A DNA stretch of 64,000 bases, from positions 558,001 through 622,000 of the forward strand of contig NZ_FXZC01000001.1 in assembly GCF_900169275.1 (NCBI RefSeq), read 5' to 3'. Positions within the stretch are counted from its first letter, which is position 1. Every line of letters starts with the position of its first letter. This DNA is from Brevibacterium casei CIP 102111. Its GTDB lineage: Bacteria; Actinomycetota; Actinomycetes; Actinomycetales; Brevibacteriaceae. This document shows positions 9,802-26,804 of the stretch, in pieces. A model generated the notes under the pieces. The model was given only the letters and a program-made list of their open reading frames with translations. It was not told where the DNA came from and did no database searches. The position numbers and the translations under genes are program-made.

Positions 9802-10239
9802 GTGGGACGACAGTCGAAAGTGATCAGCGCGGTGGTGACCGGGCTGGTCGTCATTCTCGCGGTGCTGGCCTTCGTCCTCGTCCGCGGAACGTCCCACCCC
9901 GAACGCCCGGACCTCAGCCCGGTCAAGGTCACCCCCACTGCCACGGTCACGGACGGAACCGGCGATCCGAACGGAACGGGGTCCGCGCAGGGTTCCGGCG
10001 CCCCCGACGGCAGCGCTGGTGATTCCAGCGGTTCTCGGGACGGGGGGCAGACACCTGACGGCAGCGGATCGGGGGGTGACGCCTCGGCGAAGGGACGGGG
10101 CGAACTCCAGCACTCCTACGAACCGGCACCGAACCCGCCCCGGGAGGTGCCCTCCGACGGCGACGATGACGACGACGGCGCCGGCGACGACGGCGACGAT
10201 GATGACGACGATGACGGCGGTGACGATGACGACGACTGA
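9802..10239 (+). CDS. Single-pass membrane protein with an acidic Asp-rich tail
   Basis: The GTG at 9802 is preceded by GGGTGGAAG. An upstream in-frame ATG at 9721 has no ribosome site, so the start is uncertain. The product is about 145 residues. A short basic head (GRQSKV) is followed by one hydrophobic segment, ISAVVTGLVVILAVLAFVLV, then a Ser/Gly/Thr/Asp-rich extracytoplasmic region and a C-terminal run of about 35 residues that is almost all Asp and Gly. The tail could bind divalent cations. Its last 14 bases overlap the sensor kinase gene, so the two are co-translated, and it may be an accessory to that sensor. No family recognised. Confidence 0.6.
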   Translation: MGRQSKVISAVVTGLVVILAVLAFVLVRGTSHPERPDLSPVKVTPTATVTDGTGDPNGTGSAQGSGAPDGSAGDSSGSRDGGQTPDGSGSGGDASAKGRGELQHSYEPAPNPPREVPSDGDDDDDGAGDDGDDDDDDDGGDDDDD

Positions 10240-11722
10240 TCGTCGCATCCGGCTCACCGTCGAGAACCGTCTGACAATCGCGGTCACCCTCCTCTCCGTG
10301 CTCGCTCTGACGATCGTCGGCCTCGTCCTCTACTCGGTGGAGTCGAACAACGTCTCCAACCGCCTGTCCGCGTCGATGTCACAGGAGATCGCCGAGATGC
10401 GCGCCTTCGCGCAGACCGGCGTCGACCCGGAGACCGGCCAGCCCTTCACCTCGGTCGACCAGATGCTCGGGCAGTTCCTCGCCCAGAACCAGCCTGACGC
10501 CCACGAAGCGCTCTTCGCGTTCCTCAGCGACGGGCGCGTCCTCTACCAGGGAGAACCGAACACCCTCATCCGCGGCTCGCGCTCGCTCGAAGACGCCGTC
10601 GAAGCCGAATCCGACCAGGGAGGTGAGTTCTCGCTGCGGATCGACGGCAACGAGTACATCGGCTACGTGCTTCCCGTCTCCGCCATCACCTCGGCGCCTG
10701 GAGACGCCACCTCAGCGTCGCCGACCCCGCTGGAGCAGCAGGCGGACCGAGGCAGTGACCAAGGCGGGGAGGCGGGAGAGGAGGACGCGCGCGGTGCCTT
10801 CGTCGTCGTCACCAACGCATCGGACAGCCGGGCCGACCTCACCCAGGTCATGCAGCTCTACGTCGTCGTCGCCCTGCTCGCGACCCTCATCATCTCCGGT
10901 ATCTCCTCCGTGCTCGCCCGTCGTCTGCTCTCCCCGGTCACCGAACTGCGACAGACCGCCCAGTCGATCTCCGCCGGTGATCTCAGCAGCCGGATCGAGA
11001 CCCGCGGCAGCGACGACATCGCCGAACTCGGCCGCACCTTCAACGCGATGCTCGACCGACTCGAATCCTCGTTCGCGACGCAGCGGCAGTTCCTCGACGA
11101 CGTCGGCCATGAGCTGCGCACGCCGCTGACCATCCTCAGCGGCCACCTCGAGACGATGAACGCCGCCGACATCGACGACGTCGACGAGACCCGAGCGCTC
11201 CTCCTCGACGAGACAGACCGGATGACCCGCCTCGTCGAAGAGCTCCTCGTCCTCGCCCGCTCCCGTCGCCCCGACTTCGTGTGCCCCGGCAGCGTCGACA
11301 TCCCGGCCCTGCTCCACCATGTCCTCGCGAAGGCGACGGGGCTGGCGTCGCGGGACTGGCAGGTCGACGTCCCCGAGTCGTTCGTCCTCCGTGCCGACCG
11401 CCAACGCCTCACCCAGGCGCTGCTCCAGCTCGCCGCGAACGCCGTCAACCACACCGAGGAGGGCGGGACGATCACCTTCGGTGCCACCGAGGACGCGACC
11501 CACGTCCACCTGTGGGTGCGCGACGACGGCCCAGGAGTCCCGCCGGAGATCGCGACCGACATCTTCGACCGCTTCACCCGCGGATCCACCGAGGGCAGCG
11601 GCTTCGGACTCGGACTCTCGATCGTCGGTGCCATCGCCGAAGCCCACGGCGGCACCATCGTCCTCGACCCGACCGAGGTCGGCGCCCAGTTCCGCATGAT
11701 CCTGCCGAAAGGACACCAGTGA
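10226..11722 (+). CDS. Two-component sensor histidine kinase
   Basis: This is a 498-residue membrane-bound kinase. A first membrane segment (about 16-38, LTIAVTLLSVLALTIVGLVL) and a second (about 210-232, VVVALLATLIISGISSVLA) flank an extracytoplasmic sensor of about 170 residues. HAMP follows at about 233-285, then HisKA with GHELRTPLTIL (phospho-acceptor His295). The ATPase domain has the N box QLAANAVNHT, G1 DDGPGVP and G2 GSGFGLGLS. It autophosphorylates and passes phosphate to the regulator that overlaps its stop by 4 bases (GTGA). The start is ATG 10226, inside the end of the acidic-tail gene. The signal is unknown; the neighbouring Asp-rich protein suggests a metal or envelope cue, as an inference. 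Confidence 0.93.
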   Translation: MTTTDRRIRLTVENRLTIAVTLLSVLALTIVGLVLYSVESNNVSNRLSASMSQEIAEMRAFAQTGVDPETGQPFTSVDQMLGQFLAQNQPDAHEALFAFLSDGRVLYQGEPNTLIRGSRSLEDAVEAESDQGGEFSLRIDGNEYIGYVLPVSAITSAPGDATSASPTPLEQQADRGSDQGGEAGEEDARGAFVVVTNASDSRADLTQVMQLYVVVALLATLIISGISSVLARRLLSPVTELRQTAQSISAGDLSSRIETRGSDDIAELGRTFNAMLDRLESSFATQRQFLDDVGHELRTPLTILSGHLETMNAADIDDVDETRALLLDETDRMTRLVEELLVLARSRRPDFVCPGSVDIPALLHHVLAKATGLASRDWQVDVPESFVLRADRQRLTQALLQLAANAVNHTEEGGTITFGATEDATHVHLWVRDDGPGVPPEIATDIFDRFTRGSTEGSGFGLGLSIVGAIAEAHGGTIVLDPTEVGAQFRMILPKGHQ

Positions 11723-12378
11723 AGAGCATTCTCGTAGTCGAGGACGAGGACCGGATCTCGTCCTTCATCGCCAAGGGCCTCGGGGCCGCCGGGTTCACCA
11801 CGGAGATCGCCGCTGACGGCATCACCGGCCGCGATCTCGCGATCACCGGTGACTTCGACCTCCTCGTCCTCGACATCGGCCTGCCCGGCCTCGACGGCTT
11901 CAGCGTCCTCGAACAGCTGCGCGAACAGCGGCCCTCCCTGCCGGTGCTCGTCCTCACCGCTCGCGACAATGCCGAGGACACGATCTACGCCCTCGAGTCC
12001 GGCGCCGTGGACTACATGATCAAGCCCTTCCGCTTCGGTGAGCTGCTCGCGCGGATCCGGCTGCGGCTCAAGGAGACCGTCCAGGAGTCTCCGACGACGG
12101 AGCTGACCCGCGGCGACGTGCGCATCGACCTGCTCGGACGTCAGGTCTGGGTCAATGAGCGCATCGTCGACCTCTCGGCGCGCGAGCTCTCCCTCGCCGA
12201 GATCCTGCTCAAGAACCGCGGCAGTGTGCTCTCCCGCGAACAGCTGCTCTCCCATGTCTGGGGTTTCGACTTCGACCCCGGATCCAACGTCGTCGACGTC
12301 TATGTCGGCTACCTCCGCCGCAAACTCGGCAGCGACTTCGTCACGACCGTCCGCGGATTCGGCTACCGCGTCGACTGA
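11719..12378 (+). CDS. OmpR/PhoB-family response regulator
   Basis: This 219-residue protein has a receiver domain at 1-115 (acidic pocket VVEDED, phospho-acceptor Asp52 in LVLDIGLPGLDG, Thr in LVLTARD, Lys in DYMIKPF). A winged-helix DNA-binding domain at about 125-219 ends in TTVRGFGYRVD. It starts with GTG inside the stop of the kinase gene (GTGA overlap), with AAAGGA upstream. The next genes downstream are the glycosyltransferase/ABC operon. The gap between holds three direct repeats at an 11-base period, the spacing at which OmpR-type dimers bind, so control of that operon is likely. Confidence 0.95.
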   Translation: MKSILVVEDEDRISSFIAKGLGAAGFTTEIAADGITGRDLAITGDFDLLVLDIGLPGLDGFSVLEQLREQRPSLPVLVLTARDNAEDTIYALESGAVDYMIKPFRFGELLARIRLRLKETVQESPTTELTRGDVRIDLLGRQVWVNERIVDLSARELSLAEILLKNRGSVLSREQLLSHVWGFDFDPGSNVVDVYVGYLRRKLGSDFVTTVRGFGYRVD

Positions 12379-12494: not shown

Positions 12495-12510
12495 ATGAGA
12501 GTTCTCTCAT
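12495..12510. promoter_or_regulatory. 16-bp palindrome ahead of the glycosyltransferase operon
   Basis: ATGAGAG (12495-12501), TT, CTCTCAT (12504-12510) is a perfect inverted repeat about 45 bases before the first glycosyltransferase start. It overlaps the first of the three direct repeats, so it may belong to the same regulator site. Confidence 0.45.
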
Positions 12511-12538
12511 CCCCGTCTTACCTGGGGCTTAATCTTCG
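12506..12538 (+). promoter_or_regulatory. Three direct repeats with an 11-base period (probable OmpR-type operator)
   Basis: The elements CTCAT, CTTAC and CTTAA begin at 12506, 12517 and 12528, exactly 11 bases apart. Sites for OmpR/PhoB-type winged-helix regulators are typically direct repeats at 10-11 bases. The adjacent response regulator gene ends at 12378 and the operon starts at 12556, so this is a natural target. The assignment is an inference. Confidence 0.5.
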
Positions 12539-12555: not shown

Positions 12556-13791
12556 ATGACAGAGAATCTGAGTATCGCGCTCTTCTCCCACGACTCCCTG
12601 GGGCTGGGCCACATCCGCCGCAACCGGGCGCTCGCCTTCGCTCTCGCCGCGCAGCTGCCTGAACTCACCGGTCGACCGGTGAGCGGCCTCCTCATCGCCG
12701 GCAGCCCCGAAGCCGCCCGCTTCGACCTGCCGACCGGATGGGATTGGATGATCCTGCCGGGAGTCACCCCCGCGAACGGCGGATATGCTCCCCGCGCGCT
12801 CGCCTCGACGATGGAGGGACTGCGCAGCCTGCGATCCGCAGCGATCACCGCCGTCCTCGACCAGCAGCAGCCCGACCTCTTCATCGTCGACCGGCATCCC
12901 TTCGGCATCGACGGCGAACTCGCCGAGGCGCTCGACCGCTGCCGCGTCCACGGGACCCGCACGGTCCTCGGGCTCCGGGAGGTCCTCGACGACCCGTCGG
13001 TCATCGCCGGCGAGTGGGACCGTGTGGGCGGCCCCGACGCCGTGGCCCGAGCGTTCGACGAGGTGTGGGTCTACGGCGATCCCGAGGTCTACGACCCCCG
13101 CGCCACCGGCGAAGTGCCGGCCGAACTGGCCCGCCTCACCCGGATGACCGGATATCTCTCGCTGGCCCGCCGCGAACCCTCGACGCCCGTCCCCGCGGCC
13201 GATCCCGCACTCACGGATGCCGCACCCTTCGTTCTCACCTGCCTCGGCGGGGGCTCCGACGGTGCCGCCCTCGCCGAGCGTGCGATCCTCGCCGCCCCAC
13301 CCGCAGGCCACCGCCACCTCGTCGTCGTCGGCCCGCAGATGGCGACCGCCGAGGTCGACCGCCTCACCGCCCTCGCCCCCGCCGGCACCTCCGTGGTCCG
13401 GCACAGCCCGGACATGCCCGGCCTCATCGCCCGCGCCGAGGCTCTGGTGTGCATGGGCGGATACAACACGATGGCCGAGGTCATGGCGACCCGGACCCCT
13501 GTCCTCGTTATCCCCCGCGTCGGCCACCGCCAGGAGCAGCCGCGGCGCGCCGCAGCCCTGACCGCCGCCGGTGCCCTTGACTCCGCACCCCTGACCGAGG
13601 CGACCCCGGAGTTCCTCCGCGACTGGTTCGGCTCCCACGCTGGGTCCGAGGTCTCCCGCGATCACATCGACCGCGACGGCCTGCGCCGGGTCCCTGTCCT
13701 CGCCGCCGAGCTCCTCTCGGCCGCAGGCACCCTCCCGTTCGCTCCCGCCCACCCGACCACCCTCACCGAGGAGGCCCGCTGTGCCGTCTGA
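12556..13791 (+). CDS. MurG-like glycosyltransferase (COG4671-type), first gene of a glycan/export operon
   Basis: This 411-residue cytosolic GT-B enzyme begins with the motif FSHDSLGLGHIRRN (residues 9-22), a donor/acceptor loop reminiscent of MurG and of predicted glycosyltransferases of the COG4671 type. The second Rossmann half contains VLTCLGGGSDGA and the nucleotide-sugar signature CMGGYNTMAEVMATRTPVL, typical of GT28-like C-terminal domains. It therefore likely transfers a sugar from a UDP- or similar donor to a lipid or glycan acceptor. Its 3' end overlaps the next gene by 11 bases, which makes the five genes a coupled operon. Donor and acceptor are unknown. Confidence 0.8.
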   Translation: MTENLSIALFSHDSLGLGHIRRNRALAFALAAQLPELTGRPVSGLLIAGSPEAARFDLPTGWDWMILPGVTPANGGYAPRALASTMEGLRSLRSAAITAVLDQQQPDLFIVDRHPFGIDGELAEALDRCRVHGTRTVLGLREVLDDPSVIAGEWDRVGGPDAVARAFDEVWVYGDPEVYDPRATGEVPAELARLTRMTGYLSLARREPSTPVPAADPALTDAAPFVLTCLGGGSDGAALAERAILAAPPAGHRHLVVVGPQMATAEVDRLTALAPAGTSVVRHSPDMPGLIARAEALVCMGGYNTMAEVMATRTPVLVIPRVGHRQEQPRRAAALTAAGALDSAPLTEATPEFLRDWFGSHAGSEVSRDHIDRDGLRRVPVLAAELLSAAGTLPFAPAHPTTLTEEARCAV

Positions 13792-15070
13792 GATCGTCCC
13801 CAGCCAGGTCCCGCCTCGGCGGGCCTATGTCCTCAAGATGTATCCCCGGTTCTCCGAGACCTTCATCGTCTCCGAGATCCTCGCCCGCGAGGCGGCGGGG
13901 GAGGACATCGTCATCTTCTCCCTGCGCCCGTGCACCGACGCTCGGTTCCACCCGGAGCTCGCCCGGGTCCAGGCCCCGGTCATCCACGTCCCCCGCCCCT
14001 CGAGCGCCCACGGATTCTGGCAGCTGTGGCAGGAGGCGACAGCGGACCCTGTGCTCGCTGACGGGACGGCCGAGAACCTCGGCGACCTCGTCGGACTCGA
14101 CCACGACGACGCCGCGCAGTCGCTGGCCGTCGCCCGGCTCGCCCGCGAGCACGGTGTCACCCACCTCCACGCGCACTTCGCGTCGGTGGCGACGACCGTG
14201 GCCCGCGCCGCATCCCTGCTCACGGGGATCCCGTACTCGTTCACCACGCACGCGAAGGACATCTTCCACGACAGCGTCGTCACCGCCGACCTCGCCCGGA
14301 AGACCGCCGACGCCGACCACGTCGTCGCGATCAGCGACTTCAACCGGGACTATCTGCGCCGGCGCCTCGGACCGGTCCTCGCCGAGCGGATCCACGTCGT
14401 GCGCAACGGACTCGAACTCGACCGCTTCCCCTACCGACCGGGCCGCCCCGCAGGCTGGGTCGCGCGACTGCTCGCCGTCGGCCGCCTCGTCGAGAAGAAG
14501 GGCTTCACCCACCTCCTCCCCGCCCTCGCACTCCTCCTGGAGTCCGGGCGGGACGTTCGACTCGACCTCGTCGGCACCGGCCCGCTCGAGGCGGAGCTGC
14601 ACGAGCAGATCACCGAGCTCGGCCTCGCCGACACCGTGACGATGCACGGGGCACTGACCCAGCGGGAGGTCACAGCGATGATCGATGACCACACCGCCCT
14701 CGTCGCGCCGTTCGTCCCCGGCTCCGACGGCAACGTCGACGGTCTGCCCACCGTCCTCCTCGAGGGCATGGCCGCGGGCATCCCCTGCGTGGCCGGCAGC
14801 GTCACCGCCGTGCCCGAGATCGTCATCGACGGGCGGACCGGCTGGCTCGTCGACGGCACCGACCCGAATGCCATCGCCTCCGCCGTCGCCGAGGTGATCG
14901 ACCTGACCGCCCATGATCCGCAGACCCTGCGCCGGATCACCGATGCCGCGCGCGACCGCGTCGCCGACCTTCACGACTCCCGGAGGCAGGCCCGGGCGCT
15001 CGCGGATCTCATCGACCGGCCCGCTGACGATGTCGACCAGCCGGTCGAGGAACTCGAGGTCGCCTCATGA
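13781..15070 (+). CDS. GT4-family glycosyltransferase A
   Basis: This 429-residue GT-B protein has an N-terminal acceptor domain with YVLKMYPRFSETFIVSEI and HLHAHFASVATTVARAAS. The C-terminal donor domain has LLAVGRLVEKKGFTHLLPAL and the EX7E region VDGLPTVLLEGMAAGIPCVA (Glu at both ends), followed by DGRTGWLVDGTD. These are standard GT4 (RfaB/PelF-like) features for retaining transferases. It starts with GTG 13781 inside the previous gene (GAGGAG just upstream) and its stop overlaps the next start by 4 bases (ATGA). It probably extends the same glycan as its neighbours. Confidence 0.88.
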   Translation: MPSEIVPSQVPPRRAYVLKMYPRFSETFIVSEILAREAAGEDIVIFSLRPCTDARFHPELARVQAPVIHVPRPSSAHGFWQLWQEATADPVLADGTAENLGDLVGLDHDDAAQSLAVARLAREHGVTHLHAHFASVATTVARAASLLTGIPYSFTTHAKDIFHDSVVTADLARKTADADHVVAISDFNRDYLRRRLGPVLAERIHVVRNGLELDRFPYRPGRPAGWVARLLAVGRLVEKKGFTHLLPALALLLESGRDVRLDLVGTGPLEAELHEQITELGLADTVTMHGALTQREVTAMIDDHTALVAPFVPGSDGNVDGLPTVLLEGMAAGIPCVAGSVTAVPEIVIDGRTGWLVDGTDPNAIASAVAEVIDLTAHDPQTLRRITDAARDRVADLHDSRRQARALADLIDRPADDVDQPVEELEVAS

Positions 15071-16221
15071 GAATCGCCTACGTCCTCCTCGACCCCGGCA
15101 TCGGGATCTTCGGCACCAAGGGTGCCAGCGTCCACGCCCAAGAGGTCATCCGCAGCTTCCGCGCGCTCGGCCACGAGGTCACCGTGTTCTGCACCCGCAC
15201 CGATGACGCCGTGCCCGCCGACCTCGCCGACCTCGACGTCGTCCGCCTCGAGCTGCCCGCAGGGCTCGAGCGCGGCAGCCGGGAGATCGCGCTCCTGCGG
15301 GTCTCCGACCTCCTCGCCGACCTCGTGGCCGGCGAGCACGCAGGCATCGACGTCGTCTACGAGCGGTACTCCCTCTTCTCGACGGCCGGAGCGAGGATCA
15401 GCGAGCGCCTCGGCGTGCCGCTGCTCCTCGAAGTCAACGCCCCGCTCATCGACGAGCAGCGCACGCACCGCGGACTCGTCCACGACGATCATGCCGTCAG
15501 GGCCACGGCCGTGAGCTTCGGGCAGGCGGCACGGCTCGTGTGCGTGAGCGAGGCCGTCGCCGAGTGGGTCCACCGCGACTACCCGGGGCTCGACGATGTC
15601 GCCGTCGTACCCAACGGCGTCAACACCGACCGCATCGTCCCCGGCACGCGCGGCCCAGGCGACCAGGCACCCGATGCTCCTGTGCACATCGGCTTCGTCG
15701 GCACCCTCAAACCGTGGCACGGCACCGACCGGCTGCTGCGTGCGGCCGCCGGACTGCGCGGGGCCTTCCACCTCGACATCGTCGGCGACGGTCCCGAAGC
15801 CGAGGCGCTGGTCCGCCTCGCCGACGACCTCGACCTGGGGGAGCGGGTGACCTTCCACGGGGCCGTCGCCCCCGCCGACGTCCCCGCCCACCTGCGCGGA
15901 TTCGACATCGCATCCGCCCCCTACCCGGGCGGGCCGAACTACTTCTCCCCGCTCAAGGTCTATGAGTACATGGCCGCGGGCCTGCCCACCGTCGCCTCGG
16001 CGGTCGGGGCCCTGCCCGACCTCATCACCGGCACCGGGACCGGGCTCCTCGTCCCACCCGACGACCTCGCCGCCCTCACCGAGGCGCTCCAATCGCTCAT
16101 CGACGACCCCGCCCTGCGCACCCGCATGGGTGAGGCCGCCCGCGCCGGGGCGCTGGCCCGGCACTCGTGGACGAGCCGGTGCCGCGACATCCTCGACCCC
16201 GTCCTCCTGGAGACAGCATGA
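15067..16221 (+). CDS. GT4-family glycosyltransferase B
   Basis: This 384-residue GT-B enzyme differs from the preceding gene but is of the same clan. It has the N-terminal GIFGTKGASVHAQEVIRSF acceptor loop, DVVYERYSLFSTAG, and a C-terminal domain with IGFVGTLKPWHGTDRLLRA. The EX7E-like donor site reads FSPLKVYEYMAAGLPTVAS. It lacks a membrane segment. The start (ATG 15067) and the stop of the previous gene share ATGA, and its own stop shares ATGA with the ABC transporter. Three different transferases in one coupled operon imply a short oligosaccharide of at least three additions or alternative acceptors. Confidence 0.88.
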   Translation: MRIAYVLLDPGIGIFGTKGASVHAQEVIRSFRALGHEVTVFCTRTDDAVPADLADLDVVRLELPAGLERGSREIALLRVSDLLADLVAGEHAGIDVVYERYSLFSTAGARISERLGVPLLLEVNAPLIDEQRTHRGLVHDDHAVRATAVSFGQAARLVCVSEAVAEWVHRDYPGLDDVAVVPNGVNTDRIVPGTRGPGDQAPDAPVHIGFVGTLKPWHGTDRLLRAAAGLRGAFHLDIVGDGPEAEALVRLADDLDLGERVTFHGAVAPADVPAHLRGFDIASAPYPGGPNYFSPLKVYEYMAAGLPTVASAVGALPDLITGTGTGLLVPPDDLAALTEALQSLIDDPALRTRMGEAARAGALARHSWTSRCRDILDPVLLETA

Positions 16222-18140
16222 CGACGAGCCCGACCCGCCCCGCCCCGAGCGCCCTGCGACGGACGCTGCGGATCATCACCCCGCACCTCGGGCGCCACAC
16301 GTGGCTGATCATCGCCGGCCTCCTCGCCCTGCTCGCCGACGTCGTCTTCCGCATCCTCGAACCGTGGCCGATCAAGATCGCCGTCGACGCCGTCACCGCG
16401 GCCCTCGGGGCGAACATCGACGCGAGCTTCGACCTCGGGACGGGGGTCGCGACGACGCTCGCAGCCGCGGCGATCGGCCTCGCCGTCATCGTCGCCGGAC
16501 GGGCAGTGACCAACTACGCCTCGACGATCTGCTTCGCCCTCGTCGGCGCGCGGGTCGCCACCCAGCTGCGCACCCGGGTCTTCGACCACATCCAAGCGCT
16601 GTCGCTGAAGTACCATTCGCGCGCCTCGATCGGCGACACCTCGCAGCGGCTCGTCGGTGACATCGGCCGCCTCCAGGAGGTCGCCGTCACCGCGGGACTG
16701 CCGCTGCTCGGCAACATCATCACGCTCGCCGTGCTCCTCGTCGTCATGGTCGTCCTCGACCCCGTGCTCAGCGCGATCGTCCTCGCCACCGCCGTCGTCT
16801 ACGGTGTGCTCTCCCGGGTCTCGACCCCGAAGATCACGACCGCCTCCCGCTCGACCCGCAAGGGGGAGGGCCGCCTCGTCGGGTCCGCCGCCGAGGCGCT
16901 CGGGGCGATCCGCGTCGTCCAGGCCTACGGACTCGAACGCACCGTCGCCGCCGACTTCGCCGACGGCAACGAACGGGCCCTGCGGGCCGGGGTGCGTGCC
17001 CGCCGCCTCGCCGCCGGCCTCGAACGCTCGACCGATGTCCTCGTCGGCATCTCCCAGGCCCTCGTCCTCGCCTTCGGCAGCTACCAGGTGCTCCGCGGGG
17101 CGATGACCCCCGGCGACCTCGTCCTCTTCCTCCTCTACCTCAAGATCGCGATGAAGCCGCTGCGGGACATGGCGAAGTACACCGGACGCATCGCCCGCGC
17201 CACCGCGTCGGGGGAGCGGATCGCCGACCTCCTCGATGAGCCGATCGAGATCGCCGACCGTCCCGGGGCGGTGGCGATGGGACCGGTGCGCGGCGACGTC
17301 GTCTTCGACGGCATCCGCTCCCGCGACGGGCACGGCCGACCGCTCTTCGACGGTCTCGACCTCCTCATCCCAGCGGGTCAGAGGATCGGGATCCTCGGTG
17401 CCTCGGGGGCAGGCAAATCGACCCTGACGAGCTACCTGCTCCGCCTCGCCCAACCCGAGGAGGGACGCATCTACCTCGACGGCTACGACACCGGCAACGT
17501 CACCCGCGCCTCCCTGCGCGGCAGCGTCTCCGTCCTCCTCCAGGAGTCCGTCCTCTTCGCCGCGACCGTGCGGGAGAACATCCGGTACGGCCGCCTCGAC
17601 GCCACCGACGCCGAGGTGGAGGCCGCCGCCCGCGCCGCCCGTGCCGACGAGTTCATCCGTGCCCTTCCCGAGGGCTACGACACCGTGCTCGGCAACCGCG
17701 GGGATACGCTCTCCGGCGGGCAGAGGCAGCGTCTGGCGATCGCCAGGGCCCTCGTCCGCTCCGCCCCGGTCGTCGTCTTCGACGAGGCGAGCACCGGGCT
17801 CGACCCGCGCACCCGAGCGCAGGTCACCGAGTCCCTGTGGGCGCTCACCGAAGGCCGCACCGGGATCGTCATCACCCACGACGTCGCCATGGTCAGAGGC
17901 CTTGACCGGGTCGTGTGGCTCGAGGACGGGCGAATCGTCGAAGACGGCTCTCCCCAGGATCTCGCAGCCGACCCGACGAGCCGCGTCGCCCAGTGGATGC
18001 GCGATCAGGCCGAGGATACCGAGAGCGGCGGGGTCTCGCAGGAGCCCGTCGCTGAGGCGGCCCCCGTCGACGCGGCTGCCGACGGCGCGGCTGCAGACGG
18101 CGCGTCCCGCACCGCCGTGGGAATGGGAGCCGCCCGATGA
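16218..18140 (+). CDS. ABC exporter, fused membrane and ATPase domains
   Basis: This 640-residue half-transporter has an ABC type I exporter fold. Six membrane helices lie within about residues 20-330, including the FRILEPWPIKIAVDAVTAAL intracellular-loop region. The ATPase domain has Walker A GASGAGKST (about 394-402), Q-loop VLLQESVLFAATVRENI, signature LSGGQRQR (about 498) and Walker B VVVFDEAS, with the H-loop ITHDVAMV. It would act as a homodimer in the cytoplasmic membrane, probably flipping or exporting the product of the neighbouring glycosyltransferases. The C-terminal 40 residues are Ala/Asp-rich. It overlaps both neighbours by ATGA. Confidence 0.92.
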   Translation: MTTSPTRPAPSALRRTLRIITPHLGRHTWLIIAGLLALLADVVFRILEPWPIKIAVDAVTAALGANIDASFDLGTGVATTLAAAAIGLAVIVAGRAVTNYASTICFALVGARVATQLRTRVFDHIQALSLKYHSRASIGDTSQRLVGDIGRLQEVAVTAGLPLLGNIITLAVLLVVMVVLDPVLSAIVLATAVVYGVLSRVSTPKITTASRSTRKGEGRLVGSAAEALGAIRVVQAYGLERTVAADFADGNERALRAGVRARRLAAGLERSTDVLVGISQALVLAFGSYQVLRGAMTPGDLVLFLLYLKIAMKPLRDMAKYTGRIARATASGERIADLLDEPIEIADRPGAVAMGPVRGDVVFDGIRSRDGHGRPLFDGLDLLIPAGQRIGILGASGAGKSTLTSYLLRLAQPEEGRIYLDGYDTGNVTRASLRGSVSVLLQESVLFAATVRENIRYGRLDATDAEVEAAARAARADEFIRALPEGYDTVLGNRGDTLSGGQRQRLAIARALVRSAPVVVFDEASTGLDPRTRAQVTESLWALTEGRTGIVITHDVAMVRGLDRVVWLEDGRIVEDGSPQDLAADPTSRVAQWMRDQAEDTESGGVSQEPVAEAAPVDAAADGAAADGASRTAVGMGAAR

Positions 18141-20665
18141 CGGCAGTCGAGTCGACCGTGACCATTGCGACAGCTCCGACGGCGAACGGTTCTGCCGCCG
18201 GAACGACCCCCGACTTCGGCGTGCCCTTCCTCGCGGACCTCCGATCGCCCGACGTCCTGAGCGCGCACCTCGGCTTCCCCGTCGAACCCGTGCGGATCCG
18301 GATCAAACCCGGCCGCAGCGCGATCGTCGCCTGGCGGCGGCCCGGGGTCGACCACCTCGGAGGGTGGGGGTGGACCGCGGTGATGACCGATCCCGACAAA
18401 CTCGCCAACCTCCGTCGGCGTGCGGCGCGGGTGGGGGAGACCGTGCTCGACCACGCGGTGAGCGACACCGGGTTCGTCCTGCTCAGCGGGGGAGTGCGCG
18501 CCGATCCGAAGCTCGCCCGGCCCCTCGTCGAGGCTGCGACGACCCTCGACCTCGACGCGTGCACCGTCGTCGGCTGCAACCCCGGCCGCCGGGTGCTGCT
18601 GCGCGCTCCCGGCCGCGGTGCCGAGTTCGTTCGGATCGGCACCGGTTCCCTCTCTGCCATGGTCGCCGCATCCGAGCAGTGGCTGAGATGGGGCCTGCCG
18701 ACCCTTCCCGTCCACCGCCTCGGCGAGCAGGAGAGCGCCGTGCGCACGCCCTGGTGGGGCACCGGGGACCTCAACGGGAATCCGGATCCCACCCTCGCCG
18801 AGGCGGTCGGAGAGTCGATCGCCCGCCTCCATGCGCACGGTGCCGGGGAGGTAACCCATGCCGAGATCGGTGCCGAGGCGCTCGCGATGCTCGCCGACGC
18901 CGAGCGCGCATTGTCGCGTCTCCTCGGCGAGGACGGACGAGTCGCCGAGCTCACGCGTCGGATCGGCGAGCGGCTCGAGTCCGCGGGAGGACTCCGCGAC
19001 AATCAGGCGATCCACGGCGATCTCAGCCCTGACCAGGTGCTCGTCGGCGACGGCGACCCGCGGATCATCGATCTCGACCGGGCCGGGGTCGGACCGACCG
19101 GTATGGACCTCGGCCGGTGGACCGCCGCGTGCCGGCTCCGCGAGGACGGACACGGCCCGGGCCTCGAAGCGGGCTTCCTCCGCGGGTACGACCGCGCGGG
19201 CGGCTTCACAGTGCGCGCCGATTCGGTCGGGGTCGCGGGTCCGACCGCTGCCGGGGCACTCGAGGCATGGACGGCCTGGGCACTGCTCGTCACCGCGATC
19301 GAACCGTGGCGATCGTGCCGCGCCGACTGGCGGGAGCACACCGACCGGCACCTCGTGCTCGCAGAGAAGGCACTCGATTCGGGAGCCGATCGCGGCAGTC
19401 ACCGGTCCACTTTCGCTGACGCTGACGCCGAGGCCGACGGTGCCGCCGACGCCGGCACCGACTCCGGCACCAGCGCGGGCACCGACGCCGACGATGCCGC
19501 CGACGCCGACTCCGGCACTAGCGCGGGCACCGACGCCGACTCCAGCTCCGATACCAGCTCTGGCACTGGCGCGGGCGGTCAGATCCCGTCGACAGTGCGC
19601 ATCGACGGTGCAGAGGCACGGGTGCGGCGGGCGTGGCCGGCGAAGAAGGGGCGGATCGCCTTCGAGGCGAACGCTCACGGTGAGCTGCGCGCGGGATACC
19701 TCGATGGGGTCTCACCCCCAGGGGTGCACCAGGTGACCATGCTCCCTGCAGGGCACGATCCGGAGCTTCCGGGACTCGCACGTCTCCTCCGTGAAGGGGC
19801 GGCCCGGCTCGTCTCGCATCGGCCCGGCCGCCGCGCCGTCGTCGCTCTCGCCGACGGCACCTTCGCCAAGTGCGTGCGCGAGGGCAGAGCTGCGGCCATC
19901 CTCGCCGGTCAGGACCGCGCAGCTGCCTTCGCCGCAGGGTTCACCCTCCCCACGGTCCTCGACTCCGACGACTCGACCGTGCGCCTGTCCCGAGTGCCGG
20001 GGGTCGACCTCCATGATCCCGCCGGGCTCGGGGAGGACTGGGCGCGCGCCTGGACGGCCTGCCTCGACGCGTGGGTTCGGGCCGGCAGTGCGCCCGACGA
20101 CGGCTCCTTCGCCCCGGATGCTCCGGAGCACACCGCGGCGGACGAAGCCCGCGTGCTCGAGGACTGGCGCGACCGGGCCGACGACCACCTCGGCGCGCTC
20201 ACGGCCGGACTCGATCCGCTCCTCGCCGCGGTCACCGGCGAGCTGCGCGCGAACGCCGGGACCGTTTCCTCCTCAGCGGGTGACCACGTCTCCTCCGTTT
20301 CCGACGCTCGCGGGCCCGGGACCTGGGGTCCCCTCCACCGCGACCTCCACGACAAGCAGCTGATGTGGGACGCCGAGGCGGGGCCGGGACTGCTCGACGT
20401 CGACACGGCGTGCGCGGGGGAGCGGGAACTCGACCTCGGCAATCTCCGCGCGCACGCCCGCTGGCGGCGCGAGCAGGGGATCTGGACTCAGCACCAGACC
20501 GACGTCGTGCTCACGGCGATCGCGGACGCCGCCTCGGCGAGCGGTTGCGACCTGGCACGGGTGCGGCTCTATGAACGGTCAGCGCTGCTCCGACTCGTCT
20601 GCGTCTACGCGTTCCGACCGCAGTGGTCGGGCCGGACGGGAGCGCTCCTCGACGCGGCGGACTGA
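18137..20665 (+). CDS. Large kinase-like protein with two APH (aminoglycoside phosphotransferase-fold) domains
   Basis: This 842-residue protein carries two copies of the APH/choline-kinase active-site motif. The first is IHGDLSPDQVL (His293, Asp295) with IIDLDRAGVGPTGMDLG. The second is LHRDLHDKQL (His734, Asp736) with LLDVDTACAGERELDLG. Each half also has a hydrophobic N-lobe sheet, including KPGRSAIVAWRRPG in the first and KKGRIAFEANAHG in the second. The halves are joined by a low-complexity Asp/Ala/Gly/Thr linker (about 428-477) encoded by a DNA repeat. Members of this fold phosphorylate sugars, amino sugars or choline-like groups. As the last gene of the coupled operon it probably phosphorylates the glycan or a precursor. 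An 842-residue double form is unusual. Confidence 0.8.
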   Translation: MTAVESTVTIATAPTANGSAAGTTPDFGVPFLADLRSPDVLSAHLGFPVEPVRIRIKPGRSAIVAWRRPGVDHLGGWGWTAVMTDPDKLANLRRRAARVGETVLDHAVSDTGFVLLSGGVRADPKLARPLVEAATTLDLDACTVVGCNPGRRVLLRAPGRGAEFVRIGTGSLSAMVAASEQWLRWGLPTLPVHRLGEQESAVRTPWWGTGDLNGNPDPTLAEAVGESIARLHAHGAGEVTHAEIGAEALAMLADAERALSRLLGEDGRVAELTRRIGERLESAGGLRDNQAIHGDLSPDQVLVGDGDPRIIDLDRAGVGPTGMDLGRWTAACRLREDGHGPGLEAGFLRGYDRAGGFTVRADSVGVAGPTAAGALEAWTAWALLVTAIEPWRSCRADWREHTDRHLVLAEKALDSGADRGSHRSTFADADAEADGAADAGTDSGTSAGTDADDAADADSGTSAGTDADSSSDTSSGTGAGGQIPSTVRIDGAEARVRRAWPAKKGRIAFEANAHGELRAGYLDGVSPPGVHQVTMLPAGHDPELPGLARLLREGAARLVSHRPGRRAVVALADGTFAKCVREGRAAAILAGQDRAAAFAAGFTLPTVLDSDDSTVRLSRVPGVDLHDPAGLGEDWARAWTACLDAWVRAGSAPDDGSFAPDAPEHTAADEARVLEDWRDRADDHLGALTAGLDPLLAAVTGELRANAGTVSSSAGDHVSSVSDARGPGTWGPLHRDLHDKQLMWDAEAGPGLLDVDTACAGERELDLGNLRAHARWRREQGIWTQHQTDVVLTAIADAASASGCDLARVRLYERSALLRLVCVYAFRPQWSGRTGALLDAAD
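19420..19575. repeat. In-frame tandem repeat encoding the linker of the double kinase
   Basis: Two diverged copies of a unit of about 50-60 bases share ACTCCGGCAC and the AGCGCGGGCACCGACGCCGA core. They sit in the middle of the 18137-20665 gene and encode DSGTSAGTDAD-type repeats. The region is the most repetitive coding stretch in the window and probably varies in length between strains. Confidence 0.75.
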
Positions 20666-20686: not shown

Positions 20687-21727
20687 TCAGCTCTGCGTGC
20701 TCCGACGGGCGTCTCCCCAGATGTCGACACCCGAATCGACGGCGAAGTCGTCGATCGCGGAGAGCTCGCCGTCGGTGAACGGCGCAGAGTTGAGGGCGGC
20801 GACGTTGTTCTCGAGCTGGTCGACGCGGCTCGCGCCGATGACGAGCGAGGAGACCCTGGGATCGCGCAGCGCCCAGGCGAGCGCCATCTGGGCGAGCGAC
20901 TGACCGCGGGCGGCGGCGATCTCACCGAGTCCGCGGATCCGGGCGAGGTTGTCCTCGGAGAGGAACCCGTCCTTGAACGACGGAGTGTCCTTGCCGGCCC
21001 GTGAGTCCTCGGGCACTCCGCCGAGGTATCTGTCGGTGAGCAGGCCCTGGGCGAGGGGAGAGAACGCGATGACGCCGAGCCCGTGCTCGGTGGTGGTGTC
21101 GAGGAGACCGTCGTCCTCGATCCAGCGGTTGAGCATCGAGTACGAGGGCTGGTGGATGAGCAGCGGGGTGCCGAGGTCGTCGGCGATCTGGGCGGCGCGG
21201 GCGGTGTCGGCCGCCGAATACGAGGAGATGCCGGCGTAGAGGGCGCGGCCCGAGCGCACGGCCGTGTCGAGGGCCCCGATGGTCTCCTCGAGCGGAGTCG
21301 AGGCGTCCGGGCGGTGGGAGTAGAAGATGTCGACGTAGTCGAGGCCGAGGCGAGCGAGCGACGCGTCGAGGCTCGAGAGCAGGTACTTCCGGCTGCCGCC
21401 GGGTCCGCCGTAGGGGCCGGGGTGCATGGCCCAGCCGGCCTTCGTCGAGATGATGAGCTCATCGCGGTAGGGGCCGAGGTCCTCGCGCAGCTGCCGGCCG
21501 AAGTTGATCTCGGCCGATCCGGCAGGCGGGCCGTAGTTGTTCGCGAGGTCGAAGTGGGTGATGCCGAGGTCGAAGGCGCGGCGGACCAAGTCGCGCTGGG
21601 TCTGGAAGGCGACATCGTCGCCGAAGTTGTGCCACATGCCCAGCGACAGTGCCGGCAGGACGAGACCGGATCGGCCCACCCTGCGGTAGGTCATCGAGTC
21701 GTAGCGGTTCTCGGCAGCGGCGTACAC
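20687..21727 (-). CDS. Aldo/keto reductase of the L-glyceraldehyde-3-phosphate reductase (YghZ/Gpr) type
   Basis: This 346-residue TIM-barrel NADPH-dependent oxidoreductase carries the family N-terminus MTYRRVGRSGLVLPALSLG, closely followed by MWHNFGD, a mark of the YghZ/Gpr subfamily. Catalytic Tyr lies in FDLANNYGPPAGSAE, Lys in ISTKAGWAM and His in IFYSHRPD. YghZ reduces L-glyceraldehyde 3-phosphate and other toxic aldehydes, and proteins of this type also serve as the beta-subunit-like AKR6 group. It is transcribed opposite to the glycan operon and its stop lies 21 bases from the stop of the double kinase. Confidence 0.88.
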   Translation of the reverse strand: MYAAAENRYDSMTYRRVGRSGLVLPALSLGMWHNFGDDVAFQTQRDLVRRAFDLGITHFDLANNYGPPAGSAEINFGRQLREDLGPYRDELIISTKAGWAMHPGPYGGPGGSRKYLLSSLDASLARLGLDYVDIFYSHRPDASTPLEETIGALDTAVRSGRALYAGISSYSAADTARAAQIADDLGTPLLIHQPSYSMLNRWIEDDGLLDTTTEHGLGVIAFSPLAQGLLTDRYLGGVPEDSRAGKDTPSFKDGFLSEDNLARIRGLGEIAAARGQSLAQMALAWALRDPRVSSLVIGASRVDQLENNVAALNSAPFTDGELSAIDDFAVDSGVDIWGDARRSTQS

Positions 21728-23228: not shown

Positions 23229-24038
23229 GTGACGAAATTCCATTCGATCCGCGACCAGCTCCTCGATCGCCTCGAGGGCATGGCCGCCGGGGAGCAGTTC
23301 CCGCCGGAGCGCCAGCTCGCCGAGCAGCTCGGGATCTCCCGGATGACTCTGCGCCGCGCGATCGACGAACTCGTCGCCCAGGGCGTCGTGCGCCGGCGCC
23401 ACGGCGCGGGGGTCTTCGCCCTCGGCCCGAAGTTCGACCAGCCGCTGGCCGCGAGCTCGTTCACCGAGGACATGCTCGCCCGCGGACTCGCTCCCGGCTC
23501 GCACGTCCTCGGCTTCGACCGCGGCCCGGCCGGGGCGCACATCGCCCGGAAGCTCCACCTCGGCGAGGACGACGAGGTCGTGACGATCCTCCGCCTCCGC
23601 CTCGCCGACGCGGAGCCGATCGCCCTCGAGGAGCTCCACATCCCCGCCGCCCGCGTCCCCGGCCTCACCGCCGATGACCTCGAGGACAGCTCGTTCTACG
23701 AGCTGCTGGGCACCCGCTTCGGCATCGAGCTCGCCCACAGCGTGCAGACGATCGAACCGACCCTCCTCGACGCCGACGAGTCCGCCCACCTCGCGGCTCC
23801 ACCGCAGGCTCCGGCGCTCCTCTTCGAGCGGATCTCGCGCAGCGCCGACGACGTTCCTTTCGAGTTCGTCCGCTCGGTCTACCGCGGTGACCGCTACAAG
23901 GTCCGCACCGAGCTCACCGTCCCCGTCCGACCGGCCAGCCCCGAAGGTCGCCCCGCAGCCCGCCCCGCAACGCCCGCCGAGGCCCGCGCCGCAGCCCGCC
24001 CCGCAACCCCCACCCCTGCAAGCGGTGACCGGGCATGA
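23229..24038 (+). CDS. GntR-family (HutC/NagR-type) regulator of the MurNAc salvage operon
   Basis: This 269-residue regulator has an N-terminal winged helix at about 1-70, with FPPERQLAEQLGISRMTLRR and a QGVVRRRHGAGVFAL wing. The UTRA ligand domain at about 85-230 includes DEVVTILRLRLADAEPIALEE and ALLFERISR, followed by VYRGDRYKVRTEL. UTRA domains of the NagR/DasR branch bind amino-sugar phosphates; here MurNAc 6-phosphate or GlcNAc 6-phosphate is likely. The C-terminal 40 residues are Pro/Ala-rich and repetitive. The GTG start has GGGGAG immediately upstream, so the ribosome-site spacing is tight. It overlaps anmK by ATGA. Confidence 0.88.
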   Translation: MTKFHSIRDQLLDRLEGMAAGEQFPPERQLAEQLGISRMTLRRAIDELVAQGVVRRRHGAGVFALGPKFDQPLAASSFTEDMLARGLAPGSHVLGFDRGPAGAHIARKLHLGEDDEVVTILRLRLADAEPIALEELHIPAARVPGLTADDLEDSSFYELLGTRFGIELAHSVQTIEPTLLDADESAHLAAPPQAPALLFERISRSADDVPFEFVRSVYRGDRYKVRTELTVPVRPASPEGRPAARPATPAEARAAARPATPTPASGDRA

Positions 24039-25255
24039 TCATCGCCGGGCTGATGACGGGAACCTCGGCCGACGCCCTCGACGTCGCCCTCGCCGAGTTC
24101 GTCCACGACCCGTCCGCGGACGAGCTCGGGGTACGCCTCCTCGCCGGCGAGGAGATGCCCTTCGACCCTGCCCTGCGCACCGACATCCTCCGCCTCCTCG
24201 AACCCGTCGAGCTGCCGCTCTCCCTCGTCAGCGACGTCGACGGTCGCCTCGGCCGCTTCAGCGCCGAGGCGCTCGCCCAGGTGTGCGCGAACGTCGGGGC
24301 CGTCCCCGACCTCGTCGTCTCCCACGGCCAGACCGTGCGCCACGACATCGCCGAGGCCCGCGTGACCTCGACTCTCCAACTCGGCCAGCCCGCGTGGATC
24401 GCCGAGACCCTGGGCGTCCCCGTCCTCTCCGACGTCCGCTCCCGCGACATCGCCGCCGGCGGGCAGGGAGCCCCGCTCGTCGGGATCCTCGACGCCATGC
24501 TGCTCACCGAGGCGGAAACTCCGACCGCGCTGCTCAACCTCGGCGGGATCGCCAACGTCACCGTCATCGCCCCGGACCAAGACCCGTTCGCCTTCGACAC
24601 GGGTCCCGCGAACGCCTTCATCGACGTCCTCGCCCGCCGGATCACCGACGGTGCGCAGTCCTGCGACGTCGACGGGGAGCTCGCCGCCCGCGGAAGGGTC
24701 GACGCGGCACTGCTGAGCGACCTCCTCGGCGAACCCTATTACCGGCTGCCCGCCCCGAAGTCGACGGGCAAGGAGCACTTCCATGCCGCTTACCTCGACC
24801 GATACCTCGTCGACCATCCTCGGCTGAGCGAAGTCGACGCGATCGCCACGGTCACCGCGCTCACCGCCCGCACCATCGCCGAGGCGGTCCGTCCCCACGG
24901 CGTCACCGCGGTCATCGCCTCCGGGGGTGGGACCCGGAACCCGACGCTCATGCGTGCCCTGCGCGCCGAGCTCGGAGAGACGGTCACCCTCGAGACGACG
25001 GACGCGGCCCTCGGCCTGCCCGAGGGGTCGAAGGAGGCCGTGCTCATGGCGCTCATCGGCTGGCTGAGCTGGCACGGCCTGCCCTCGACCGAGCCGAGCC
25101 TCACGGGCGCCGCCCGCCCGACCATCGCCGGACGGCTGAGCCCGGGGTGGAGGCCCCTGCGGCTGCCCGCGCCCCTGGAGCGCCGGCCCCGCCGGCTGCG
25201 AATCCTCGGCGGGCCGCCGCACGACCCGCCCTCGCCCGACGCGAACCCCACCTGA
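24035..25255 (+). CDS. anmK: Anhydro-N-acetylmuramic acid kinase
   Basis: This 406-residue sugar kinase phosphorylates and hydrolyses 1,6-anhydro-MurNAc to MurNAc 6-phosphate, the entry step of cell-wall sugar salvage. Family marks are the N-terminal GLMTGTSADALDVALAEF, VVSHGQTVRH, LQLGQPAWIAE, ALLNLGGIANVT, FDTGPANAFIDVL and IASGGGTRNPTLM. The C-terminal 50 residues beyond the usual end are Arg/Pro-rich. It is translationally coupled to the regulator gene upstream and followed after 43 bases by the symporter. It normally acts with MurQ, present here. Confidence 0.95.
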   Translation: MIIAGLMTGTSADALDVALAEFVHDPSADELGVRLLAGEEMPFDPALRTDILRLLEPVELPLSLVSDVDGRLGRFSAEALAQVCANVGAVPDLVVSHGQTVRHDIAEARVTSTLQLGQPAWIAETLGVPVLSDVRSRDIAAGGQGAPLVGILDAMLLTEAETPTALLNLGGIANVTVIAPDQDPFAFDTGPANAFIDVLARRITDGAQSCDVDGELAARGRVDAALLSDLLGEPYYRLPAPKSTGKEHFHAAYLDRYLVDHPRLSEVDAIATVTALTARTIAEAVRPHGVTAVIASGGGTRNPTLMRALRAELGETVTLETTDAALGLPEGSKEAVLMALIGWLSWHGLPSTEPSLTGAARPTIAGRLSPGWRPLRLPAPLERRPRRLRILGGPPHDPPSPDANPT

Positions 25256-25298
25256 GCCGACCCCCACCGACGCGAATCCCACCGAAGGAGCACCGACC

Positions 25299-26804
25299 AT
25301 GCAGATCATCGACCTCCTGGTGATCGTCGCCTACCTCGTCGCCACCGCCTGGCTCGGCCTCAAGCTGAGCGGGAAGCAGAGCGGACTGAGGGACTACTTC
25401 CTCGGCGGACGGGATCTGCCCTGGTGGGCGGTGTGCCTCTCCGTCGTCGCGACCGAGACGAGCGCACTCACCGTCATCGGCATCCCCGTGATGAGCTACC
25501 TCGGCGACATCTCCTACCTTCAGCTCGCGCTCGGCTACATCGTCGGGCGCATCATCGTCGCCTTCCTCATGCTTCCCCGCTACTACGACGGCGAGATGAT
25601 CACCGCCTATGCCTACCTCGGCAAACGCTTCGGCCAGTCGACGCAGACCACGGCGGGCATCACGTTCCTCTTCACCCGCCTGCTCGCCGACGGCATCCGC
25701 GTCCTCGCCGCAGCGATCCCGCTCAAGGTCATCCTCGACGGCCTCGGCGTCCACACGTCCTACTTCGTCATCATCGTCGTCCTCGCGCTCGTGACGATCG
25801 TCTACACGTTCATCGGCGGGATCAAGGCCGTCGTCTGGGTCGACGTCGCCCAGATGGTCCTCTACGTCCTCGGCGGTGTCCTCGCGATCGTCGTCATCAC
25901 CGCGAGCGTCGGCGGAGGATGGCTCGCCGAGGCGGCCGCCGCCGGAAAGCTGCAGATGTTCGTCTTCGAGGGCAACCCGATCAACGCGGCCGGATCGTTC
26001 ATCCCCTCGTTCGTCGGCGGCGCCGTGTTCGCGATGGCCTCCCACGGTTCCGACCAGATCATCGTCCAGCGGCTCCTGTCGTGCCGGACGAAGGCCGACG
26101 CGCAGAAGGCGCTCATCGTCTCCGGCTTCGTCGTCTTCGTCCAGTTCGCGATCTTCCTCGCCGTCGGACTCGCCCTGTGGGCCTACTACGACCAGGCCCT
26201 GCCCGCCGACCTCGGGCTCACCCGCGACGACGAGATCTTCCCCCTCTTCATCATCGAGGGCCTGCCGCCGGGGATCTCCGGCCTGCTGCTCGCCGGCATC
26301 CTCGCCGCCGCGATGTCGACCCTGTCGTCCTCGCTCTCGGCCCTGTCGTCCTCGACCGTCACCGACGTCTGGGCCCGGTTCAGGCGGACCCCGCTCACCG
26401 ACGCAGAGGGCCTCAGGGTCGGTCGCTGGGCGACGATCGCATGGGGGATCGCGTTCATCCTCCCGGCCACGGTCTTCGAATCCGACTCCGGCAACATCGT
26501 CATCCTCGCCCTCGGCATCGCCGGCATCACCTACGGCGGCCTCCTCGGCGCGTTCGTCTTCGGAATGGTCAACAAGCGCGCGACCGCCGTCGATGCGAAC
26601 ATCGCCTTCGTCCTCGCCATCGCCGTCAACGCGTACTTCTTCATCATGGAGAAGTACGTCACCGGTGAGGTCTGGGTGGCCTGGCAGTGGTACCCGCTCC
26701 TCGGCGTCATCGTCATGGTCGTCGTCGGCGGGCTGCTCTCCCTGCGCCACCCGTCCGTCCCTGCCCGCACCCCCGCCGAGGTGGAAGGAAGCCTCCGTCC
26801 ATGA
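25299..26804 (+). CDS. Sodium:solute symporter (SSS family), candidate MurNAc/anhydro-MurNAc importer
   Basis: This 501-residue protein has about 13 membrane segments. SSS family hallmarks are the GLRDYFLGGRDLPWWAVCLS motif near residue 32, VVATETSALTVIGIP, FIGGIKAVVWVDVAQM in the middle, and LAGILAAAMSTLSSSLSALS. The Na2-site serines lie in the last. Coupling is by overlap with murQ (ATGA) and by position between anmK and murQ. The specificity is inferred only from context. MurNAc uptake is more often by the PTS protein MurP or by ABC systems, so an SSS carrier would be an unusual solution. Confidence 0.88.
   Translation: MQIIDLLVIVAYLVATAWLGLKLSGKQSGLRDYFLGGRDLPWWAVCLSVVATETSALTVIGIPVMSYLGDISYLQLALGYIVGRIIVAFLMLPRYYDGEMITAYAYLGKRFGQSTQTTAGITFLFTRLLADGIRVLAAAIPLKVILDGLGVHTSYFVIIVVLALVTIVYTFIGGIKAVVWVDVAQMVLYVLGGVLAIVVITASVGGGWLAEAAAAGKLQMFVFEGNPINAAGSFIPSFVGGAVFAMASHGSDQIIVQRLLSCRTKADAQKALIVSGFVVFVQFAIFLAVGLALWAYYDQALPADLGLTRDDEIFPLFIIEGLPPGISGLLLAGILAAAMSTLSSSLSALSSSTVTDVWARFRRTPLTDAEGLRVGRWATIAWGIAFILPATVFESDSGNIVILALGIAGITYGGLLGAFVFGMVNKRATAVDANIAFVLAIAVNAYFFIMEKYVTGEVWVAWQWYPLLGVIVMVVVGGLLSLRHPSVPARTPAEVEGSLRP

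Follow-up and report, generated by a model that had tools for sequence, protein, structure and literature searches.

A conserved module of three glycosyltransferases, an ABC half-exporter and APH-type kinases in Brevibacterium casei: a candidate route of glycan export

The window analysed here is a 64,000-nucleotide stretch of Brevibacterium casei CIP 102111 (contig NZ_FXZC01000001.1, positions 558,001 to 622,000), taken from a genome of 3.84 Mb in 24 contigs. It contains an operon of five overlapping genes that encode a GT28/MurG-like glycosyltransferase (GT1), two GT4 glycosyltransferases (GT2 and GT3), an ATP-binding cassette (ABC) half-exporter and a double APH-type kinase (domains a and b). 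The GT28-GT4-GT4-ABC-kinase-kinase set is an evolutionary unit. We read the operon as a member of a widespread module that makes and exports a glycan, with phosphorylation by the kinases coupling assembly to export, a reading whose chances of being right or wrong we judge about equal.

The five open reading frames (ORFs) lie on the forward strand and are coupled end to end, with an overlap of 11 bases at the first junction (13781-13791) and ATGA at the remaining three (15067-15070, 16218-16221 and 18137-18140), exactly as described in an earlier reading of the letters without database searches (the sequence-only reading). The exporter ORF has an alternative in-frame GTG start at 16167, which would add 17 residues relative to the ATG at 16218; the latter is preceded by CTGGAGACAGC and yields the ATGA junction with GT3. 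Pfam, motifs and predicted folds bore out the family order given in the same reading, namely a MurG-like transferase, two GT4 transferases, an ABC half-exporter and a double APH protein. The profile of GT1 matched the MurG structure 1f0k (E = 3.4e-9), and the protein is not a MurG equivalog, scoring 29.2 bits with TIGR01133 against a curated cut-off of 250.25. The exporter carries ABC_membrane (151.2 bits) and ABC_tran (107.1 bits) in a single chain, and the Walker A, LSGGQ, Walker B-Glu and ITH motifs of its nucleotide-binding domain (NBD) are intact. Its best NCBIfam models are related to MsbA, with scores below their cut-offs (MsbA_rel, 357 against 780.4 bits; MsbA_lipidA, 332.6 against 602 bits). 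Crude hydropathy profiles of the transferases showed no run of membrane segments, only a single hydrophobic stretch in GT2.

Table 1. Features of the operon and its upstream region, in window positions. Other loci carry L numbers; TMD, transmembrane domain; aa, amino acids; pLDDT, predicted local distance difference test.
Feature	Position	Strand	Basis and remarks
Sensor histidine kinase (HAMP, HisKA, HATPase_c)	10019..11722	+	Pfam; 76% identical in L009, L010
OmpR-type response regulator (Response_reg + Trans_reg_C)	11719..12378	+	Pfam, longer frame 11281-12375; 93% identical in L009, L010
Candidate response-regulator site	12505..12535	+	TCTCATCC, TCTTACCT 11 bases apart, then CTTAATCT
GT1, GT28/MurG-like glycosyltransferase, 411 aa	12556..13791	+	PF04101 (GT28 C-terminal domain) 27.3 bits, over cut-off 22; MurG 1f0k profile; GGYNT..E and R.EQ motifs
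GT2, GT4 glycosyltransferase, 429 aa, GTG start	13781..15070	+	PF00534 104.5 bits
GT3, GT4 glycosyltransferase, 384 aa	15067..16221	+	PF13692 100.6 bits; relative fused to ABC exporter in L071
ABC half-exporter, TMD+NBD, 640 aa	16218..18140	+	Pfam, motifs; relatives fused to first kinase in L053, L054
Double APH-type kinase, 842 aa	18137..20665	+	PF01636 genome search, predicted folds
Kinase domain a with additional N-terminal beta-rich module ahead of N-lobe	18137..19399	+	HGDLSPDQ, IIDLD; model pLDDT 89.9
Low-complexity linker joining kinase domains	19379..19591	+	
Kinase domain b	19577..20662	+	HRDLHDKQ, LLDVD; model pLDDT 82.0

Two APH active sites had been proposed for the 842-residue protein from the sequence alone. 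PF01636 was found in its first half by genome search (46.9 bits, cut-off 23.2), the full-length protein had no Pfam match by hmmscan at E ≤ 0.001, and the predicted models of both halves match APH kinase folds. Residues H293, D295, D312 and D314 of kinase a are invariant in 52/52 aligned sequences, as are K98, H254, D256, Q261 and D274 of kinase b in 56/56. The double APH kinase is borne out, but the two-domain form does not extend to the module as a whole: kinases a and b are fused in the window and in L009, L010, L012, L013, L018 and L023, while in Pseudarthrobacter and E. coli they are two separate genes. Many proteins named as Brevibacterium, 406-457 residues long, correspond to kinase a alone. 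Judged from these gene structures, the double kinase is a lineage-specific fusion.

The best named relatives are Brevibacterium sp. W7.2 and XM4083. A pattern-based GT1 scan of named genomes, with close relatives only within its reach, gave nine loci, six of which have the full order (L009 and L010 in Brevibacterium; L012, L013 and L015 in Brachybacterium; L014 in Pseudarthrobacter, with separate kinase genes); L011 and L017 fit the order as far as the contig end, and the ninth locus, L016, belongs to a related (sister) cluster. With GT1 profile A2, which included four rows of that sister cluster, at least 18 of 396 Actinomycetota genomes matched at E ≤ 1e-40, the source genome included, a lower bound because four candidates per genome were scored. 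All six parts occur together in nine of the 17 other genomes (L042, L045, L047, L048, L050, L051, L053, L054 and L057), with kinase b placed between GT3 and the exporter in L048 and L051 and with matches split over two frames for GT1 in L057 and GT2 in L054. The second kinase of L054 is labelled b by position, because its match to kinase a sequences (67.8 bits) is slightly stronger than that to kinase b sequences (62.8 bits). Six further loci fit the order until their contigs end (L036, L043, L044, L046, L049 and L052), and L055 has no detectable GT2. L056 (genome G042) was rejected, since it has a GT1 match without the arrangement. A second ABC half-exporter, about 36-38% identical to that of the window, lies near the cluster in Brachybacterium (L012, 4806-6551; L013, 6361-9138) and in two other Actinomycetota (L045, 1819-3753; L050, 2208-4106).

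Across 57 genomes of the genus, searches with GT1 (E ≤ 1e-60) and with kinase b (E ≤ 1e-20, up to 34 candidates scored in each genome) both gave matches in 36. Both were present in 35 and neither in 20; the two one-sided cases were G606, with a partial GT1 only, and G650, with a partial kinase b only. The two genes lie within about 8 kb of each other in 31 of the 35 genomes, and on different contigs of fragmented assemblies in G608, G629, G633 and G647. This co-occurrence indicates that the operon is an accessory trait retained or lost as a block.

The sequence-only reading had proposed a search for the five-gene order across genomes. That search found it again in Actinomycetota, on alphaproteobacterial and E. 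coli plasmids, and in genome G516. On plasmids of Paracoccus aestuarii and Pseudorhodobacter turbinis the five genes follow in the same order, the two kinases again joined in one protein, and are accompanied by a divergent two-component system. The plasmid search with the whole 842-residue kinase gave no matches, and kinase b of E. coli as query recovered both clusters. In E. coli the cassette reads GT28-GT4-GT4-ABC-APH-APH-AlgE-UDP-sugar dehydrogenase and was found in 18 of 5426 complete genomes, every copy plasmid-borne and at least 99% identical; all ten PLSDB records that carry it are typed as conjugative (10/10). These eight genes (L058, 1547-11737) are flanked by insertion sequence (IS) remnants of IS3 and IS66. 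In the phylum of a Desulfobacteraceae metagenome-assembled genome (MAG), kinase b matched 4 of 198 genomes at E ≤ 1e-20, two of them strongly. G516 (L072) has the order GT1-GT2-GT3-ABC-kinase a-kinase b-AlgE, and G413 (L071) the same order minus AlgE. Conservation of the order in several phyla excludes a chance association.

Neighbouring members of the module are also found fused. A stop-free ORF of 1022 residues in L071 joins GT3 (1-380) to the exporter (423-995), and single stop-free ORFs in L054 (968 residues) and L053 (973 residues) join the exporter to kinase a. L052 was considered as a further exporter-kinase fusion and is not counted, as its candidate frame gave no match. A protein search with the kinase part of the L054 fusion, accepting only matches between 0.55 and 1.75 times as long as the query, returned 36 clusters at E ≤ 1e-20, of which 30 also carry PF00664 and PF00005 (29 besides the query's own protein); 30/36 is not a frequency, because the length limits exclude stand-alone kinases. 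Inter-locus distances correlate for all ten protein pairs (r = 0.66 to 0.95, highest for GT3-ABC; for each pair, 0 of 2000 permutations reached the value), uncorrected for the shared species history of the hosts. They were computed on 17 loci of our choosing (15 for kinase b), with L010, L015, L054, L057 and L071 left out though they too have the four genes. Since operon neighbours are fused in overlapping pairs (GT3-ABC, ABC-kinase a and kinase a-b), GT3, the exporter and the kinases probably form one complex.

Genes beside the cluster in other species give clues to the product. A UDP-glucose/GDP-mannose dehydrogenase adjoins it in E. coli, L014 and L042, and the next gene downstream of the cluster encodes an Alginate_exp (PF13372) protein in E. 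coli (83.9 bits) and in G516 (161.3 bits). PF13372 was present in 3 of the 13 genomes or records searched, namely G516, the E. coli plasmid and a Manganitrophus plasmid; the search of the B. casei genome found none. Manganitrophus plasmids carry a looser relative, with an alginate lyase, two APH genes, a radical SAM protein, a histidine phosphatase, transferases, an ABC exporter and AlgE. Sulfotransferase-like genes lie directly beside the cluster in L048 (926-3799) and L051 (1710-4596), PF13469 being detected in 3/3 scanned, and hint at a sulfated glycan in Actinomycetota. Together the neighbours point to a secreted glycan, which probably contains uronic acid; as they belong to other species, such a product is only extrapolated to Brevibacterium. 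No primer enzyme, polymerase or flippase is annotated in the E. coli cassette between the IS remnants. If the cassette is complete, the transferases would set the chain themselves, or the product would be a short oligosaccharide.

That the five genes serve one product, as first suggested from their linkage, is supported by the conserved order, the linking fusions and the AlgE, dehydrogenase and sulfotransferase neighbours seen elsewhere. The same evidence argues for a glycan product and against the possibility, raised in the sequence-only reading, of a drug exporter unrelated to the transferases.

A two-component system lies immediately upstream of the operon in three Brevibacterium loci, the window among them, confirming what had been noted from the letters. 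The candidate regulatory site ahead of GT1 consists of two 8-base repeats, and CTTAATCT contains a possible -10 element (TAATCT). The two-repeat pattern has one match in the window and none in 100 shuffles; this test is not independent because the pattern was written after the alignment, and the weight is carried by conservation, the composite pattern being found among 80 loci only in the window's own locus L024 and in Brevibacterium L009 and L010. As a fixed part of the module the two-component system was rejected, with a histidine kinase within 5 kb in 9/21 loci and a response regulator in 7/21 (several flanks being shorter than 5 kb). The Paracoccus response regulator scored 158.9, 151 and 146.1 bits against three other response regulators of the B. 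casei genome and 144.2 bits against the one in the window.

On the glycan-export reading, the GT28-like and two GT4 enzymes would assemble a cytoplasmic sugar chain from nucleotide sugars, which, given the enzyme families and the dehydrogenase neighbours elsewhere, probably include a UDP-uronate. APH kinases docked on the exporter, as the fusions suggest, would then phosphorylate the chain or its acceptor, and this step may commit the chain to export or end its growth. A homodimer of the half-exporter would, by its family, carry the chain across the inner membrane. In Brevibacterium the chain would reach the surface or medium directly; in some diderms an AlgE-like barrel, judged from its position beside the cluster, may pass it through the outer membrane. 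Expression in Brevibacterium may be switched on by the upstream two-component system, acting through the repeats at 12505-12535.

Several observations weigh against this reading, beginning with the length limits and the shared host history that qualify the fusion count and the distance correlations, and with the lack of the module in those 20 genus genomes. The two full UDP-sugar dehydrogenases of the B. casei genome both lie distant from the operon. AlgE is absent from G413 and from the Paracoccus and Pseudorhodobacter plasmid records (chromosomes not searched); linkage to an outer-membrane channel is thus no general feature. The N-lobe lysine of kinase a is not fixed (R in 34/52 sequences, K in 18/52), and 16/52 sequences have H for Q. 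The nearest kinase folds are methylthioribose kinase, LxmK, choline-kinase-like proteins, TvaE and antibiotic kinases, and fold comparison with Foldseek and VIA-align points to no single substrate.

In the main rival explanation, which we consider unlikely, the kinases act first: like N-acetylhexosamine 1-kinase, glucosamine kinase or maltokinase, they would make a sugar phosphate or phosphorylated primer for the three transferases to extend and the exporter to ship. Profile searches agree with this in part, matching kinase b to glucosamine kinase 6hwj (E = 1.1e-4) and more weakly to maltokinase (E = 0.012), and kinase a to maltokinase 4u94 (E = 3.7e-6); antibiotic and other small-molecule kinases, however, match as strongly or more strongly, and the best folds include LxmK and TvaE, which modify peptides. 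The compact E. coli cassette, which has no annotated priming phosphoglycosyltransferase, also suits a kinase-made primer, but where kinase a is fused, in L053, in L054 and in the 30 clusters with ABC domains, its partner is the exporter and no transferase.

It is improbable that the product is a glycolipid, with the transferases glycosylating a membrane lipid and an MsbA-like exporter flipping it. GT4 and GT28-type enzymes often act on lipids and the best exporter models are MsbA-related, yet the scores fall far short of the curated cut-offs, the gene set has no lipid-modifying gene, and the AlgE-like channels adjoining the cluster in two diderms suggest a soluble chain. It is very improbable that the operon makes a small glycosylated natural product, with the kinase serving self-protection and the exporter efflux. 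APH kinases, ABC exporters and transferases do co-occur in antibiotic clusters, and the closest solved relatives include antibiotic phosphotransferases, but the set contains no scaffold-building gene and none is annotated in the E. coli cassette, the exporter is fused to GT3 or a kinase, and the module is conserved in several phyla, accompanied in some by AlgE and UDP-sugar dehydrogenase.

Bacterial polysaccharide secretion usually follows Wzx/Wzy, Wzm/Wzt-type ABC or synthase pathways. No Wzx/Wzy domains were found at E ≤ 0.001 in the five genes or 14 surrounding ORFs (rest of the genome not searched), in agreement with the earlier statement that no wzx/wzy genes lie nearby, and no Wzx/Wzy flippase or polymerase is annotated in the E. 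coli cassette. With ABC_membrane and ABC_tran in one chain, the exporter lacks the separate-subunit architecture of Wzm/Wzt or KpsM/T. A membrane-embedded synthase of the GT2 family, as in synthase-dependent pathways, is absent from the operon, whose transferases belong to GT28 and GT4.

Among half-transporter exporters tied to glycan synthesis, NdvA/ChvA is similar (PRK13657, 308.8 bits; chvA, 244.2 bits), but the scores are far under the cut-offs (733 and 585.4), the set has no cyclic glucan synthase, the partner of NdvA/ChvA, and kinases are present. Alginate-type export has a counterpart in the AlgE-like barrel (PF13372) adjoining the cluster on E. coli plasmids and in G516; in contrast to such export, the set has no GT2-family synthase, the inner-membrane step falls to an ABC exporter, and the B. 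casei genome has no PF13372.

The closest functional likeness that we draw is to the E. coli O9a system (WbdA/B/C, WbdD, Wzm/Wzt), which also combines three transferases, an ABC exporter and a kinase. According to PMC3482155, the WbdD kinase phosphorylates the chain end, halting growth, a modification needed for ABC export, and recruits the polymerase to the membrane. It thereby couples polymerisation to export and brings in a transferase, and by analogy the operon kinases may do the same; we propose that a WbdD-type phosphorylation of the chain end would be needed for export here. As compared with the O9a system, the operon's exporter is a TMD-NBD half-transporter (PF00664 + PF00005), its kinases are APH-type, fused to the exporter or to each other and without a methyltransferase, and the gene set lacks a priming enzyme. 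Pfam and NCBIfam detected no methyltransferase family in the 842-residue protein, both halves of which model as kinases. Because exporter type, kinase family and the missing methyltransferase differ, the comparison means "works like" and not "is a".

The Actinoplanes missouriensis wps-1 cluster is an actinobacterial exopolysaccharide cluster with a kinase-like protein and sulfotransferases; unlike the operon here, it is assigned by its authors to the Wzx/Wzy pathway, and its text contains neither "ABC transporter" nor "phosphotransferase" (PMC13390465). The main text of the RM9088 paper does not contain "alginate", "polysaccharide" or "glycosyl" (PMC10562709). Literature searches on the cluster, COG4671, the E. 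coli cassette and Brevibacterium glycans, largely confined to papers outside subscription, gave no description among the matches listed, nor was any homologous cluster there assigned to a known polymer, an assignment that the sequence-only reading had named as a refutation. We file the operon as a variant of ABC-exporter-dependent glycan secretion, not previously described among those matches. Tentatively, and with more doubt than confidence, we suggest that it represents a distinct mobile secretion route, spanning monoderm and diderm phyla and moving on plasmids. In it, cytoplasmic GT28/GT4 enzymes would build a chain without dedicated lipid primer, polymerase or flippase, APH kinases attached to the PF00664-type half-exporter would phosphorylate it and so license export, and an AlgE-like pore would serve in some diderms.

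A sister cluster in rhizobia, Azospirillum, Sulfitobacter and a Desulfobacteraceae MAG has homologous GT1 and GT2 genes in the same order and an ABC transporter nearby. In place of the kinases, four of the six loci examined (L016, L019, L020 and L022) carry a histidine phosphatase, a second GT28 and a polysaccharide deacetylase; in the rhizobial loci L021 and L081 there is a third transferase, which is GT28-like, together with an ABC gene, and the ABC protein of Sulfitobacter bears a cyclic nucleotide (cNMP)-binding domain. All six were treated as a related but different cluster and not counted as members. A peptide-type importer lies upstream in 5/6 loci, and the cluster is present on S. meliloti pSymB; the S. 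meliloti tags smb20804/20805 were dropped, as nothing ties them to this locus. In L016 (4052-8881, Desulfobacteraceae MAG), two HAMP-bearing SpoIIE phosphatases and small ORFs precede the transferases, suggesting partner-switch control.

Downstream of the operon, a convergent aldo/keto reductase gene (20687-21727), which keeps its position in L009 and L010 with 90% identity, marks the 3' boundary. Further on, a GntR regulator, AnmK (anhydro-MurNAc kinase), a sodium:solute symporter and a BadF-family gene (23229-28896) form a probable cluster for recovery of cell-wall amino sugars.

If the glycan-export reading is true, bacteria would possess an export route outside the three usual classes, in which the exporter, the last transferase and the kinases act as one machine; the fusion proteins make the claim of a physical complex directly testable. 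Whether non-cyanobacterial bacteria make sulfated polysaccharides is a question raised in PMC13390465, and the PF13469 sulfotransferases beside the cluster in two actinobacterial genomes bear on it. Since Actinomycetota share the set with E. coli plasmids that are typed as conjugative, the product may play a part in cell surfaces, biofilms or contact between phage and host in very different bacteria.

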